A DNA stretch of 64,000 nt. Source: Acidimicrobiia bacterium (GTDB taxonomy: Bacteria; Actinomycetota; Acidimicrobiia; Spongiisociales; UBA11373). The stretch is from assembly GCA_040902765.1 (NCBI GenBank), contig JBBDWO010000029.1, forward strand, positions 1-64,000, read 5' to 3'. A program made the position numbers and the translations under genes. Positions 42,364 through 47,574 of the stretch are shown piece after piece; the stretch's first letter is position 1; each line of letters opens with the position of its first letter. The notes under the pieces were generated by a model. It saw nothing but the letters and a program-made list of their open reading frames with translations, ran no database searches and was not told where the DNA came from.

Positions 42364-42825
42364 TCATGTTTCCTTCGTCACCTCGGCCACCTCGGCCGCC
42401 AGGTGTTTGATCAGCGCTGCTGCATCCACGTTGATCGCTACGCCGTGGGCGCCGCCGCCGATCGAGGCGAGGCCGTCTATGGAGGCGTCGGCGATGACCG
42501 GCAGGGTGGTGGTGGAGCCGAAGGGGGTGATCGCGCCGGGGGTGTAGCCGGTGGCTGCCAGCGCTTCGTCTGCAGACGCCAGGGACAGGCGCGACACGCC
42601 AAGCACACTGCGCAGTTTCGCCCAGTCGATGACTCGGTCCCCTGGGACCAGAACCATGAGGAAGTCGCCTTCGCCGCGGCGGACCACGATCGTCTTGACC
42701 ACCTGGCGGAGGTCGACACCACGGGCCTCGGCCGCCTCCTCCACGCTGGCCACCGGGCCGTACTCGATGACCTCATGGTCGAGACCCGACTCCGTCGCAG
42801 CGCGCGTGGCCGGTGTCTCAGTCAT
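42364..42825 (-). CDS. ybaK: YbaK/EbsC aminoacyl-tRNA deacylase
   Basis: A 153-aa YbaK/ProX-type editing domain: QVVKTIVVRRG carries the conserved Lys, followed by DFLMVLVPGD, GYTPGAITPFG and a C-terminal GGGAHGVAINVD. These enzymes hydrolyse mischarged aminoacyl-tRNAs such as Cys-tRNA(Pro). The start overlaps the 3' end of the ligase gene by eight bases. Confidence 0.92.
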   Translation of the reverse strand: MTETPATRAATESGLDHEVIEYGPVASVEEAAEARGVDLRQVVKTIVVRRGEGDFLMVLVPGDRVIDWAKLRSVLGVSRLSLASADEALAATGYTPGAITPFGSTTTLPVIADASIDGLASIGGGAHGVAINVDAAALIKHLAAEVAEVTKET

Positions 42826-44419
42826 CGAGCAGGACGTCGGCGAAGCGATCGCGGACGACCTTCTTGTCGAACTTGCCGGTGCCCGTCTTGGGCAACTCCT
42901 CGGCGAATTCGATCACATCGGGTAGCCACCACTTGGCCACCCGACCGTCCAGGAACTCCAGCAACTCCTCGGCGGTCACTTCGGAGCCAGGGCGCCGCAC
43001 CACCAGCGCCAGCGGCCGTTCCTGCCACTTGACGTGCTTGACGCCGATTACCGCCGCCTCGGCGACCCCTGGATGGGCCATCAGTTCGCGCTCCAGGTCG
43101 AGCGACGAGATCCACTCCCCGCCCGATTTGATCACGTCCTTGGCACGGTCGGTGATGACGATGTATCCCTCGGGAGTGATCTTGCACACATCGCCGGTCC
43201 GCATCCAGCCGTCGACGAACGCCTCCTGGCGTTCGTCCCGGAAGTACTGGGCGGCGATCCACGGGCCGCGAATGAGCAGCTCGCCGAACGCATCACCGTC
43301 GTGCGGCAGTTCGGCGCCGTCCTCGTCGACGATCTTCACCTGGAGCCCCGGCACCGGCAGCCCCGCCGTTTCCAGCCTGTCGAGGCGTTCGTCGAGGTCG
43401 AGATCCCGGTGCTCGGGAAGGAGCAGTGAGATCGAGGCCACCGGATTGGTCTCGGTCATCCCCCACCCCTGCTGCAGAACGATCCCCCGATCGCGCTGGA
43501 ACCACTCGATCATCGCCCGCGGCACCGCCGACCCTCCACACATCAACGCCCGAATCGAAGAGGTGTCCGCGTCGGGATGGTCCATCAGGTGCTGCTGGAT
43601 GCCCGCCCACACGGTCGGCACTCCTGCCGAGAAGGTCACCCGCTCGCGCTCGTAGAGGCCGACCAGCCCTTCCGGCGAGAGGTCGGGTCCCGGGTAGACG
43701 ATCCGGGCGCCGACGGTGGTCGCCGAGAACGGGTACCCCCAGGCGGCGGCGTGGAACATGGGAACCACGGGCAACACCGTGTCCGCGGCCGAGATCGAAA
43801 AGACGGCGAGCGACGAGATCGTGTGCAGGTAGGTGGACCGCTGCGTGTAGGCGACGCCTTTGGGGTTACCGGTCGTGCCTGACGTGTAACAGAGCATCAT
43901 CGGGGATCGCTCGTCGAGGATCGGCCAAGCGCCCCAGGACGGGGCATCGGCGATCAGGTCGTCGTAGGCGATGGCGTTGGGGAGATCACCGACCACCTCC
44001 GGCCCCATGACCACGAAGTGCTCCACTGTCTCCAATTCGCCAGCGAACCGCTCCACCAACGGCACCAGGTCGGGGTCCACGAAGAGCACGCGATCGGCAG
44101 CGTGGTTGACGATGTAGGCGAGCTGATCGGGGAACAGCCTGATGTTCAAGGTGTGGCAGACGCGGCCGGTGTTGGCCGTCGCCCAGTAGAGCTCGTGATG
44201 GCGCTGGTTGTTCCAGGCGAAGGTGGCCACGGCATCCCCCGTGTCCACCCCGAGATCATCGAGGGTGGCAGCGAGCCGCCGAACCCGCTCGTCAGTGTCG
44301 CCGTAGGTGGAGCGACGGATGCTGCGGTCGTACTCCACCGACACGATCTCGCGGCCCGGGTGCACCCGCACCGCGTTGTCGTACAGCGTCGACATGAGCA
44401 GCGGGAAGTCGTCCATCAT
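42818..44419 (-). CDS. Acyl-CoA synthetase (AMP-forming ligase)
   Basis: A 533-aa ANL-family ligase activating fatty or related acids with ATP and CoA. AMP-binding CYTSGTTGNPKGVAYTQ, QGWGMTETNP, GWMRTGDVCKITPEGYIVITDRAKDVIKSGGEW, and the C-terminal catalytic Lys in PKTGTGKFDKKVVR are present. The start MMDDFPLLMSTLYDN is typical; the longer frame runs through the word-like repeat. Confidence 0.93.
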   Translation of the reverse strand: MMDDFPLLMSTLYDNAVRVHPGREIVSVEYDRSIRRSTYGDTDERVRRLAATLDDLGVDTGDAVATFAWNNQRHHELYWATANTGRVCHTLNIRLFPDQLAYIVNHAADRVLFVDPDLVPLVERFAGELETVEHFVVMGPEVVGDLPNAIAYDDLIADAPSWGAWPILDERSPMMLCYTSGTTGNPKGVAYTQRSTYLHTISSLAVFSISAADTVLPVVPMFHAAAWGYPFSATTVGARIVYPGPDLSPEGLVGLYERERVTFSAGVPTVWAGIQQHLMDHPDADTSSIRALMCGGSAVPRAMIEWFQRDRGIVLQQGWGMTETNPVASISLLLPEHRDLDLDERLDRLETAGLPVPGLQVKIVDEDGAELPHDGDAFGELLIRGPWIAAQYFRDERQEAFVDGWMRTGDVCKITPEGYIVITDRAKDVIKSGGEWISSLDLERELMAHPGVAEAAVIGVKHVKWQERPLALVVRRPGSEVTAEELLEFLDGRVAKWWLPDVIEFAEELPKTGTGKFDKKVVRDRFADVLLDD

Positions 44420-44442
44420 GTGGGGCACGAAGCTAAATCTAG

Positions 44443-44500
44443 AGGAGCGAGGGGCGAGAGGCGAGAGGCGAGAGGCGAGGGGCGACGGGCGATAGGCGGG
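44443..44500. repeat. Word-like intergenic repeat (GCGAGGGG/GCGAGAGG family)
   Basis: GAGGAGCGAGGGGCGAGAGG followed by further GCGAGAGGCGAGAGG and CGATAGGCGGG units fills the divergent gap between the ligase and VanY genes. Confidence 0.85.
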
Positions 44501-44524
44501 CGCCGACCTACCCTCCAAGCCGCC

Positions 44525-45343
44525 ATGGGAACTCGTCGCCCGCCGGATCGCCGCCTACCGAAGCACATCTACGTGCGCCGCAGGATCGCCGTCGGCGTGG
44601 GTGTCATCCTCGCCGTGGTGCTCGCCACGACCCTGATCGGGCGACTGTTTGGTGCCGGAGGCACCTCCCTCCTCGACACGACGACGCTCGCCACGCCGAC
44701 TACCACCACGATCCCGGCACCGCCGCCCTGCACCACCGGTGACCTGGTGATCTCCGAGGACCCGGCCACGGCATGGGCGACGGTGGTCGTCGACACGGCT
44801 CGGCGCCTCCCCGCCACTTATGCGCCAGACGATCTCGTGTCGGCAGCCAACGCTGGCTTCGCCGTCGGCGAAGGCGTCCTCGTCCGCTCATTCTTGATCA
44901 CCGACCTCGTTGCGCTGCGCCAGGCTGCTGCCGACAACGGAACACCGGTGACGATGCTGGCCGCCTACCGCAGCTTCGATGCGCAGCAGCAGATCCTCGA
45001 CCAGCGGATCACCGAGTTTGGCGAGGAGGAGGCGCTGCGCCGTGCCGCCCGACCGGGCCACTCGGAGCATCAGCTGGGCACCACGGTCGACCTCACCAGC
45101 GAGGGACTGAGCGACGTCGACCAGGCATGGGGATGGTCGCCCACCGGCCTTTGGGTGGCAGCCCATGCCCACGAGTTCGGATTCCTCGTCACCTACCCGG
45201 AGGGAGCCGAAGCGTTCACCTGTTACACCTACGAGCCCTGGCACCTTCGATATGTGGGGCGCGACCTCGCAGCCGCGGTGGTCGAGTCCGGCCTCACTCT
45301 GCGGGAGTACCTCTACGCCTTTCACACCCCGCTCGGAGCCTGA
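44525..45343 (+). CDS. VanY-type D-Ala-D-Ala carboxypeptidase
   Basis: A 272-aa membrane-anchored peptidase: positively charged N-terminus, one helix (VGVGVILAVVLATTLIG), a Thr/Pro-rich linker, then a VanY domain with RPGHSEHQLGTTVD and EPWHLRYVG (zinc-binding His and Asp). It likely trims peptidoglycan stem peptides outside the cell. The ATG at 44525 is chosen for the signal-anchor. Confidence 0.92.
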   Translation: MGTRRPPDRRLPKHIYVRRRIAVGVGVILAVVLATTLIGRLFGAGGTSLLDTTTLATPTTTTIPAPPPCTTGDLVISEDPATAWATVVVDTARRLPATYAPDDLVSAANAGFAVGEGVLVRSFLITDLVALRQAAADNGTPVTMLAAYRSFDAQQQILDQRITEFGEEEALRRAARPGHSEHQLGTTVDLTSEGLSDVDQAWGWSPTGLWVAAHAHEFGFLVTYPEGAEAFTCYTYEPWHLRYVGRDLAAAVVESGLTLREYLYAFHTPLGA

Positions 45344-45345
45344 CC

Positions 45346-45448
45346 GAGCCACCTCCCCGCCTTCGGAGGCCGCACGCGACGCGTGAGCCCTCCCCCTCCG
45401 TCTCGGCCCTTGCGGGCCGAGCCACCTCCCCCTACGGGGGAGGGGAAC
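45346..45448. repeat. REP-like palindromic element
   Basis: Hairpins CTCGGCCC-ttgc-GGGCCGAG (45402-45421) and CCTCCCCC-tac-GGGGGAGG (45425-45443), with CCTCCCCCTCCGTC upstream. It is the inverted counterpart of the element at 18378-18530. It follows the VanY stop directly and could serve as its terminator. Confidence 0.85.
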
Positions 45449-45740
45449 GCGGAAAATCCCGAGAAAGTCACTGGCCGGAGCCAGAACCCTCTCGGGATAT
45501 TTCCGTCTGAGCGGAGCCTTGCGACTCTGCCCTCCCTCGATCTCGAGCCGAAGCTCGGTGCCGAAGTTGGTCCGGCAGTCGTCCGGTCCTTTCGGCCGGT
45601 GCGACCCTCCCGAAGGAGCTGGGTCGGAACCGCCGCCGACCGTTGCCGGTCGTTGGCACCACCACATCGCTGTAGTGACAAGGGGAACCTTACGACCCCG
45701 ACAGGGCCGGGTCAAACTGAACGGCTAGTCCGTTTTCGCG
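45449..45740 (+). ncRNA. Candidate structured RNA, copy A
   Basis: Begins with a 15-base-pair stem, CGGAAAATCCCGAGA (45450-45464) against TCTCGGGAtaTTTCCG (45490-45505, one bulge), whose loop contains CTGGC-cgga-GCCAG. Further on is GAGC-CGAA-GCTC. It ends in GGGTCAAACTGAACGG and GTTTTCGCG. Copy B at 45981-46298 has the same order with different bases in the stems. The strand is not certain. Confidence 0.55.
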
Positions 45741-45835
45741 CCCCACCGGAAGTTTTCACGCACTGCTTTCGCGAGCTCACAGCCACAGAGAGCTCGCACC
45801 ACACAGCTCACAGCAAACAACTGACAGCCAGAGCG

Positions 45836-45978
45836 GCTCGAGACGAGGAGCCAGGGACGAGGGACGAGAAGCCAGGAGCGAGGAGCCAGGGATGACGGAT
45901 GACGGACAACCGTCTGGCTGTGGAGCTGGTAGCCAGTAGCTCTGAGCTGGTAGCCGGTAGCCGGTAGCCGGTAGCCGA
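45836..45978. repeat. Word-like repeats between the two RNA-like units
   Basis: GACGAGGAGCCAGGGACGAG-type units (45840-45892) are followed by GGATGACGGATGACGG and by GGTAGCCGGTAGCCGGTAGCC (to 45978). Two of the window's word families occur side by side. Confidence 0.85.
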
Positions 45979-45980
45979 CC

Positions 45981-46298
45981 CCGAAAAAGGTGGAACCCCG
46001 AGGAAGCGTTGGCCGAAGCCGCTGCCCCCTCGGGGCTCCATGTCCCCCTGTCGAACTCTCCTTGCGGAAAGCTCCCCAGGGGGAACCGTCTCAGCGTTGC
46101 CGCCGATCCGGCACCCTCCGTCAGACCGAAGTCTTCAGGTGGGCCGTGGCCCCGCTGAGTGCCGAGTCGGACCCGGAGGCCCTCCACTGCGACCCCTCGG
46201 GGCCGCCTTCCCGTTTCCTTGCGGTCCCGGGAAGGAGTGGGGGGAAGATAGGCGAGTACGGCAACCGGGTCAAATGGAACGGGTAGGTAGTTTTCGCG
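45981..46298 (+). ncRNA. Candidate structured RNA, copy B
   Basis: Stem TGGAaCCCCGAGG (45991-46003) with CCTCGGGGcTCCA (46028-46040), inner GGC-CGAA-GCC, then AGAC-CGAA-GTCT, ending GGGTCAAATGGAACGGGTAG and GTTTTCGCG. The sequence differs from copy A mainly in paired positions that remain paired. It lies about 95 bases before an MFS gene. Open frames in it are not shared with copy A. Confidence 0.55.
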
Positions 46299-46392
46299 CT
46301 CTTGCGGCCGATTTCGCGGGCGTACCTGAGTTCCACCGATCCTCCCCCGGCGCGACTCGCAGCGCCCTACCGGCTCCTAGGCTCGCTCTGCC

Positions 46393-47574
46393 ATGCCCGG
46401 ATTCCTCACGCCCCGGTTCGTCTCGACCTGGTTTGCGTCTCTGTTCCAGGGCATGTCGTTCTTCCTCTTCGTCCACTTCCCCGGGTTCCTGCGCGACGAC
46501 CTCGGCGCCTCCGAGCAGCAGATCGGTGTGATCTTCGCGGCCACAGCACTCAGCGCCATCGCGGTGCGCCCCTGGATGGGTCGCTCGATCGACCGCCTCG
46601 GCAGGCGACCGCTCTTCATGGCGGGCAACGCGCTCAACGTGCTCGTCGTTGCCGCCTATCTCAAGGTCGACGCCATCGACCCGTGGCTGTTCACCGTTCG
46701 CATCGGGCACGGCATCGCCATCGCCCTCGTGTTCTCGGCGATGCTCGCCTACGCCGCCGACCTGGTCCCGCCCGAGCGACGCATCCAGGGTCTCTCGCTG
46801 TTCGGGGTGGCCGGACTACTTCCCATAGCGATCGGCGGCTTCCTGGGGGACCTGGTGATAGGGAGGTGGGGCTTCGACGGACTCTTCATCACCGCGCTCG
46901 CCCTGGCCGTAGTAGCACTGCTACTCACTCTCCCACTCTTGGAGGTGGCGCCGCGGCTGGAGCCGGGAACCGCGGTGTCGTTCACCCGTCCCCTCCGCCA
47001 GCGCGATCTGCTCCCCATGTGGTGGATCTCGTTCGTCTTCGCGATGACCCTGACCGGCTACTTCACCTTCATTCGGACCTTCGTCGACACCACCGGTGTC
47101 GGCTCGGTGGGCGCGTTCTTCGGCACATACGCGGCGACGGCCATCCTGCTCAGGTTGTTCTTCGGCTGGGTGCCGGATCGGGTGGGCCCGAAACGGGTCC
47201 TGTACCCGGCGATCGCCATCTTCGGCTGCGGTCTCGTCGTCCTCTCCAGCGCCGGCAGCACCGGGGGAATCATGCTCGCCGGCGTGCTGTGCGGAGCCGG
47301 TCACGGCTCGCTGTTTCCCATCCTGTTCACCGAGTCGTTCGGGCGAGCGGCGCCGCGTGACCGCGGATCGGCGTCGGCGATCTTCACCGGCGTCTTCGAC
47401 CTGGGCACGCTGGTCGGAGGGCCGATCCTCGGCTCGCTGATCGTGCTCGTCGGCTACCAATCCATGTACCTGATCACCGCCGGTTGGCTGGTGGTCGGCA
47501 CCCTGGTCTTCGCCGTGTGGGACGGCGATCTCGCTCGCCGCAGGCGACGCACCCCCGACCCCGTCGGTACGTGA
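46393..47574 (+). CDS. MFS transporter
   Basis: A 393-aa, 12-helix major facilitator protein. Motif A is GRSIDRLGRRPLF in the 2-3 loop, with a second half-copy GWVPDRVGPKRVL. It probably exports or imports a small molecule; the substrate cannot be told. It follows RNA-like unit B, which might act as its leader. Confidence 0.9.
   Translation: MPGFLTPRFVSTWFASLFQGMSFFLFVHFPGFLRDDLGASEQQIGVIFAATALSAIAVRPWMGRSIDRLGRRPLFMAGNALNVLVVAAYLKVDAIDPWLFTVRIGHGIAIALVFSAMLAYAADLVPPERRIQGLSLFGVAGLLPIAIGGFLGDLVIGRWGFDGLFITALALAVVALLLTLPLLEVAPRLEPGTAVSFTRPLRQRDLLPMWWISFVFAMTLTGYFTFIRTFVDTTGVGSVGAFFGTYAATAILLRLFFGWVPDRVGPKRVLYPAIAIFGCGLVVLSSAGSTGGIMLAGVLCGAGHGSLFPILFTESFGRAAPRDRGSASAIFTGVFDLGTLVGGPILGSLIVLVGYQSMYLITAGWLVVGTLVFAVWDGDLARRRRRTPDPVGT

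Follow-up and report, generated by a model that had tools for sequence, protein, structure and literature searches.

Two genes for structured RNAs, A and B, lie on the minus strand of the window (the whole 64,000-nucleotide stretch analysed, from an Acidimicrobiia bacterium), under promoters built like those of DNA replication genes. The explanation that best accounts for the whole, to which we assign a probability of about 0.7, is that both genes are driven by replication-regulon promoters and that their RNAs act in trans by binding protein. We are close to certain that A and B belong to a family of structured non-coding RNAs and that both are encoded on the minus strand. This family is previously undescribed, although it falls within a known kind, the structured non-coding RNAs of bacteria. 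It is absent from Rfam. Most genomes of its actinobacterial order, which is large and for the most part uncultured, have a member, as do genomes of one genus outside that order. Two promoter boxes at fixed spacing form a precise code that unites the RNA genes with dnaA, nrdJ and dnaB.

Gene A (type 1) occupies 45447..45680 on the minus strand and is supported by orthologs in the same family, covariation and strand asymmetry. Both ends of its predicted transcript of ~234 nt are themselves predictions, the start from the -10 box and the end from a hairpin and T run. The promoter elements, all on the minus strand, comprise a -10 box, TAAGGT (45687..45692); a -35 box, TTGACC, 17 bp from it (45710..45715); and a proximal CGCGAAA box whose start lies 25 bp upstream of that of the -35 box (45734..45740). 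A distal box with one mismatch, CGTGAAA, lies 20 bp farther upstream (45754..45760), and a third box, CGCGAAA, at 45767-45773. At the other end, the minus-strand hairpin at 45457..45497 (TCCCGAGAGGG...CTCGGGA), followed by TTTTCC, coincides with a match to the covariance model described below (45447-45505, E 2.0e-12); judged from its sequence, it is a probable terminator and shared module.

Gene B (type 2), with orthologs in other genera of the family and likewise supported by covariation and strand asymmetry, extends over 45986..46238 on the same strand, with a predicted transcript of ~253 nt. Its -10 box, TATCTT (46245..46250), is separated by 17 bp from the -35 box, TTGACC (46268..46273), and its proximal and distal boxes, 20 bp apart, both read CGCGAAA (46292..46298 and 46312..46318); all four are on the minus strand. 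At the 3' end of B, the conserved hairpin (CCCCGAGGGGG...CCTCGGGG) covers 45996..46035 (minus strand; model match 45986-46043, E 2.4e-13).

A preliminary description of this DNA had proposed that 45449-46298 holds two diverged tandem copies of one structured RNA, read on the plus strand, with near-identical ends. Two units with similar ends are indeed present, as a 54-nt direct repeat (45707-45760 and 46265-46318) that is 74% identical. These ends had been taken for parts of the RNA and are instead promoter DNA: the GGGTCAAA end is the reverse complement of the -35 box (TTTGACCC), and GTTTTCGCG is that of the upstream CGCGAAAAC (proximal) boxes.

The surrounding genes are partly conserved. Several genomes have a divergent MFS gene on one side of the RNA genes and, downstream on the other, bPH and acyl-CoA synthetase genes, and several relatives carry two RNA genes in tandem on one strand. 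The window has the MFS transporter gene as divergent neighbour (46393..47574, plus strand; Pfam PF07690), followed by a PD-(D/E)XK nuclease gene; such a nuclease gene is also found near the RNA locus in two other families. Downstream of the locus is the acyl-CoA synthetase (AMP-binding) gene found there in other genomes as well (42818..44518, minus strand; Pfam PF00501). The gene nearest downstream of A is a plus-strand VanY gene (44519-45343), at the position held elsewhere by the bPH gene; thus A has no downstream gene to control in cis. Degenerate short tandem repeats (GAGGAGCCAGGGACGA, GGTAGCCGGTAGCC, GGCGAGAGGCGAGA) are present in spacers by the RNA genes (45840-45978 and 44447-44500), and simple repeats of a like kind flank the RNA at two loci in other genomes.

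Folding of the single sequences on the plus strand gave z-scores of only -1.8 and -1.7. Such folding is weak evidence, and the proof of structure drawn from these sequences is comparative. In an alignment of A with nine type-1 orthologs (n=10), 24 of 71 pairs showed changes on both sides that kept pairing, and covarying cells numbered 55, compared with 23.0 +/- 3.7 in shuffled alignments, none of which reached the observed value in 500 trials; the signal was lost when the pairing partners were slid. The type-2 alignment (B with five orthologs, n=6) gave both-side changes in 15 of 82 pairs and 24 covarying cells against 9.2 +/- 2.6. In the genus outside the order, the RNA has a conserved body upstream of the hairpin, with covariation of its own (23 of 68 pairs; 37 cells vs 9.3). 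Across these three independent alignments, 0 of 500 shuffles reached the observed covariation, and each consensus fold consists of 8-15 separate helices. The earlier argument that paired changes which keep pairing mark selection on an RNA is therefore upheld in related genomes by both the type-1 and type-2 alignments. A conserved reading frame, the other explanation then considered for the similarity, was sought across both alignments and is absent.

The same alignments assign the strand. Cells with G.U rather than A.C at paired columns numbered 100:18 (type 1) and 57:11 (type 2) on the minus strand, and 34:26 and 23:21 in the best plus-strand fold; each structure was derived from the strand being scored, which tilts the counts that way for both, so it is the difference between strands that matters. 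Consensus energies were -80 vs -65 kcal/mol (minus vs plus, type 1) and -112 vs -81 kcal/mol (type 2), the sense-strand values having z-scores of -9.1 and -11.6 relative to column-shuffled alignments. Pairs in the 3' hairpin such as GC:27 / GU:16 are valid only in the minus-strand sense. On that strand, homologs have TTGAC, 17-18 bp and TANNNT upstream of the body, with CGCGAAA repeats farther up, and their bodies close with CCCCGAGAGGG...CTCGGGG and then T-rich sequence. This layout of promoter and 3' hairpin meant that the strand had to be reversed. The plus-strand reading is thus contradicted by G.U counts, energies and promoter position alike; of the earlier proposal, the structured RNA under selection stands on the covariation, and the pair of diverged plus-strand copies gives way to two distinct types on the minus strand.

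We compared the RNA bodies, leaving out promoter and 3' hairpin, to assess how A and B are related. Their alignment with each other is no better than that of shuffled sequences (z = 0.14), which is at odds with their being diverged copies of one RNA; the A body aligned with type-1 bodies of other genomes at z 12-22, and the B body with type-2 bodies at z 8.5-21. By sequence, A and B are two different RNA types that have in common a promoter architecture and a 3' hairpin. Blastn with unit A found matches in most genomes of the family, in 7 of 9 genera; blastn together with the hairpin model found no further copy in the genome of the window besides A and B. The bodies are rich in UNCG and GNRA loops. 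From predicted start to first hairpin they span about 50 to over 600 nt, although some of the longest distances may skip an unrecognised hairpin. At six loci the body contains hairpin units (GGTGTAAAAGCC, CCGGGAAACCGG, CTCGGAAACGAG) repeated a variable number of times, a pattern that would fit growth by hairpin duplication.

A covariance model of the 3' hairpin was built from 44 units, and the search of genomes with such a model that had been suggested for this locus was positive. It matched 117 of the 138 genomes of the order, with E-values down to 5e-18, and the genome of the window exactly twice, at A and B. With only these two matches in its own genome and such breadth in the order, the hairpin marks an RNA family and is not a common terminator. 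Publicly named records with matches are Acidimicrobiia and related actinobacterial metagenome-assembled genomes, with a few labelled Acidobacteria or simply bacterium. Outside the order, weaker matches cluster in some families. One genus there has a match in 34 of 41 genomes, nearly always a single one; it is the hairpin that suggests common ancestry of this RNA with A and B.

Searches for known RNAs agree with the initial statement that the locus fits no known class. Rfam 15 at gathering score had no match on either strand of the window, and on 40 related loci it returned one unrelated tRNA only; permissive searches there, and of the RNA from the outside genus, gave nothing credible. ARAGORN found no tRNA or tmRNA in the window. 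A search of its genome for 6S RNA (RF00013) at E 10 was negative, while 8 of 14 control genomes matched. No published account of the CGCGAAA element, or of these RNAs in Acidimicrobiia, was recognised in the literature searched. The consensus folds, with 8-15 separate helices, are unlike the single long hairpin with a large central bubble of 6S and Ms1. Identity as a leader or riboswitch was rejected (own promoter and 3' hairpin, next gene in the window on the opposite strand), as was a phage origin (similar phage DNA was not found).

The promoter code is constant: across 62 units the two boxes stand 20-21 bp from each other, the start of the proximal one precedes the -35 element by 25 bp, and the spacer is 17-18 bp; the unit search left play in these distances, so their constancy is a result, and units lacking boxes would have been missed. 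Of 137 genomes in the order, 130 have a box pair; the pattern read backwards, as a control, gave 7 matches. Nearly specific to the order, the full pattern (box pair plus TTG) occurs in 106 of its 138 genomes, against 6 of 257 in the remainder of the class and 3 from the sampled rest of the phylum. Three of the six class matches outside the order precede dnaA, in small low-GC genomes. Where a box pair lies upstream of dnaA in three such genomes, of another family of the class, an RNA gene was not seen. The CGCGAAA element may, from its distribution, be older than the RNA genes.

We examined 40 box-pair loci unlike the known RNA loci. Twenty precede nrdJ, ten dnaA and one dnaB; these loci were picked among the matches listed, and the shares are no estimate for all sites. 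Representative proteins were confirmed by NCBIfam, and the other dnaA sites by the Walker A motif only. At nrdJ the 25-bp spacing is kept nearly without exception: in the family of the window, 11 of 12 nrdJ promoters, including the one in the same genome, have CGCGAAA exactly 25 bp upstream of TTG, a coincidence expected at about 3e-4 per promoter. The dnaA gene of this genome has a box 25 bp before TTG and lacks a good -10; across the family, dnaA has the proximal box in some genomes only, mostly with a poor -10. Because the RNA genes have these promoter elements in common with nrdJ and dnaA, we consider it very likely that the RNAs belong to a DNA-replication regulon; the element is shared, and the genes would be co-expressed. 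The boxes could also be a general strong-promoter element rather than a replication signal. The promoter of the RNA in the outside genus has DnaA-box-like repeats (24, compared with 1.0 in shuffled sequence and 0.04 per 150 bp elsewhere). If these repeats bind DnaA, they support a tie between RNA and replication through a different element, and we infer from the sequences that this genus swapped CGCGAAA boxes for DnaA-like repeats. Seven of the family's nrdJ promoters also contain a perfect DnaA box (TGTGGATAA or TGTGGACAA) ~190-220 bp downstream of the CGCGAAA box.

From sequence features, we infer that A and B are expressed as RNAs. Each would be transcribed from its own sigma-70-type promoter into a stable, highly structured RNA; a DNA-binding protein on the paired CGCGAAA boxes would activate transcription, and the conserved 3' hairpin would probably end it. 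The RNAs would then act in trans by binding protein, with the 3' hairpin as the likely common handle. Protein binding is favoured because the body is a fast-evolving series of closed, tetraloop-capped hairpins while the 3' hairpin is held constant, and a trans-acting, protein-binding role is probable. Whether the RNAs tie gene expression or growth state to replication or to dNTP supply is a closer question, on which we lean slightly against. More tentatively still, and with considerable doubt, an RNA family with constant ends and a fast-changing body, which occurs in more than one order of the class and is built through a paired CGCGAAA element into a replication regulon with dnaA, nrdJ and dnaB, might use protein binding, in a manner unseen in other bacteria, to control initiation or dNTP supply. 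If true, the replication link would offer a testable example, outside known models, of a non-coding RNA with a part in controlling bacterial replication, as well as a lead to its regulator. Confirmation of the replication link by experiment would raise the novelty of the finding.

The main rival, which we regard as unlikely, is that A and B are the Acidimicrobiia counterpart of RNA-polymerase-binding RNAs (6S, Ms1, CoRP) and adjust polymerase availability; their promoters would resemble those of replication genes since both follow growth rate. RNA polymerase is a plausible partner. Unknown abundant polymerase-binding RNAs are expected in bacteria without 6S and Ms1, and one such RNA per species, not always 6S or Ms1, has been proposed (PMC11077062); the genome of the window lacks a 6S match. 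The sizes are near that of Ms1, about 230 nt in Streptomyces and 304 nt in M. smegmatis (PMC9130861, PMC4191392); the tandem pair is reminiscent of 6S-1 and 6S-2, and Ms1 synteny phrases include a 'PH' protein, as a bPH-domain gene flanks A/B-type RNAs in several genomes. However, the consensus is a string of hairpins and no long rod with a central bubble, and the published Ms1 list is without Acidimicrobiia. The hallmark neighbour of Ms1, a HAD hydrolase, was not recognised in the open reading frame lists beside the RNA, where the neighbours in the window are AMP-binding, VanY, MFS and PD-(D/E)XK genes and the other loci were inspected by eye over flanks of ~1.5 kb.

Less probable again is a base-pairing mechanism, with unpaired conserved segments binding nrdJ and dnaA mRNAs to adjust their translation. 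A promoter common to the RNA, nrdJ and dnaA would suit it, and CcnA provides a precedent with ctrA and gcrA in Caulobacter (PMC8959179), but the loops of A and B are mostly closed UNCG or GNRA tetraloops that offer no seeds. Predicted duplexes with the nrdJ leader did not exceed in strength those formed with its shuffled versions (z -1.4 to +2.5, in a crude test that leaves accessibility aside). A cis-acting leader or attenuator of the bPH and fadD genes would explain why the RNA lies just upstream of these genes, on their strand, in several genomes; it is very improbable, since every RNA comes with a promoter and a 3' hairpin of its own, often two RNAs in tandem, and the gene downstream of A faces the other way. 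That A and B are two GC-rich hairpins or terminators, alike by chance and without function as RNA, might be argued from the modest single-sequence z-scores; it is refuted by covariation in three alignments and by a hairpin model that reaches E 5e-18 over 117 genomes and matches its own genome only twice.

The closest known systems share some features with A and B. Like Ms1 of Mycobacterium and Streptomyces (MTS2823, scr3559), A and B are actinobacterial, fast-evolving in sequence and within about 230-304 nt, and are stand-alone genes with their own promoter and terminator; a PH-type gene is among the Ms1 synteny words. Ms1, however, folds like 6S into a rod with a central bubble and neighbours a HAD hydrolase gene, whereas the A/B family is multi-hairpin, often paired, at another locus and under replication-regulon promoters. 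The likeness to 6S RNA (RF00013) is that of a stand-alone structured RNA sometimes present in two copies; A and B differ in fold and have no Rfam match in window or genome. CcnA of Caulobacter crescentus is also a non-coding RNA gene in a replication and cell-cycle circuit, but it pairs with mRNAs at ribosome-binding sites, which was not found for A and B, and phylum and regulator differ. As in NrdR/DnaA control of ribonucleotide reductase promoters, DnaA-type boxes also occur in the nrdJ promoters of these genomes; the CGCGAAA pair, set at a fixed spacing, is distinct from them and drives RNA genes as well.

A few loci depart from the usual arrangement. Six genomes of one genus have 5-10 box pairs each, none with TTG at the usual distance, and no hairpin match; the RNA and box system seems to have been changed or lost in this genus. 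One locus has a run of four CGCGAAA boxes, spaced at 19-22 bp, without RNA-like sequence behind them. At two others, an excisionase-type helix-turn-helix gene lies ~400 nt downstream of a box pair and is followed in one of them by a ClpS-like reading frame; this gene is a candidate for the regulator of the boxes or for another member of the regulon.
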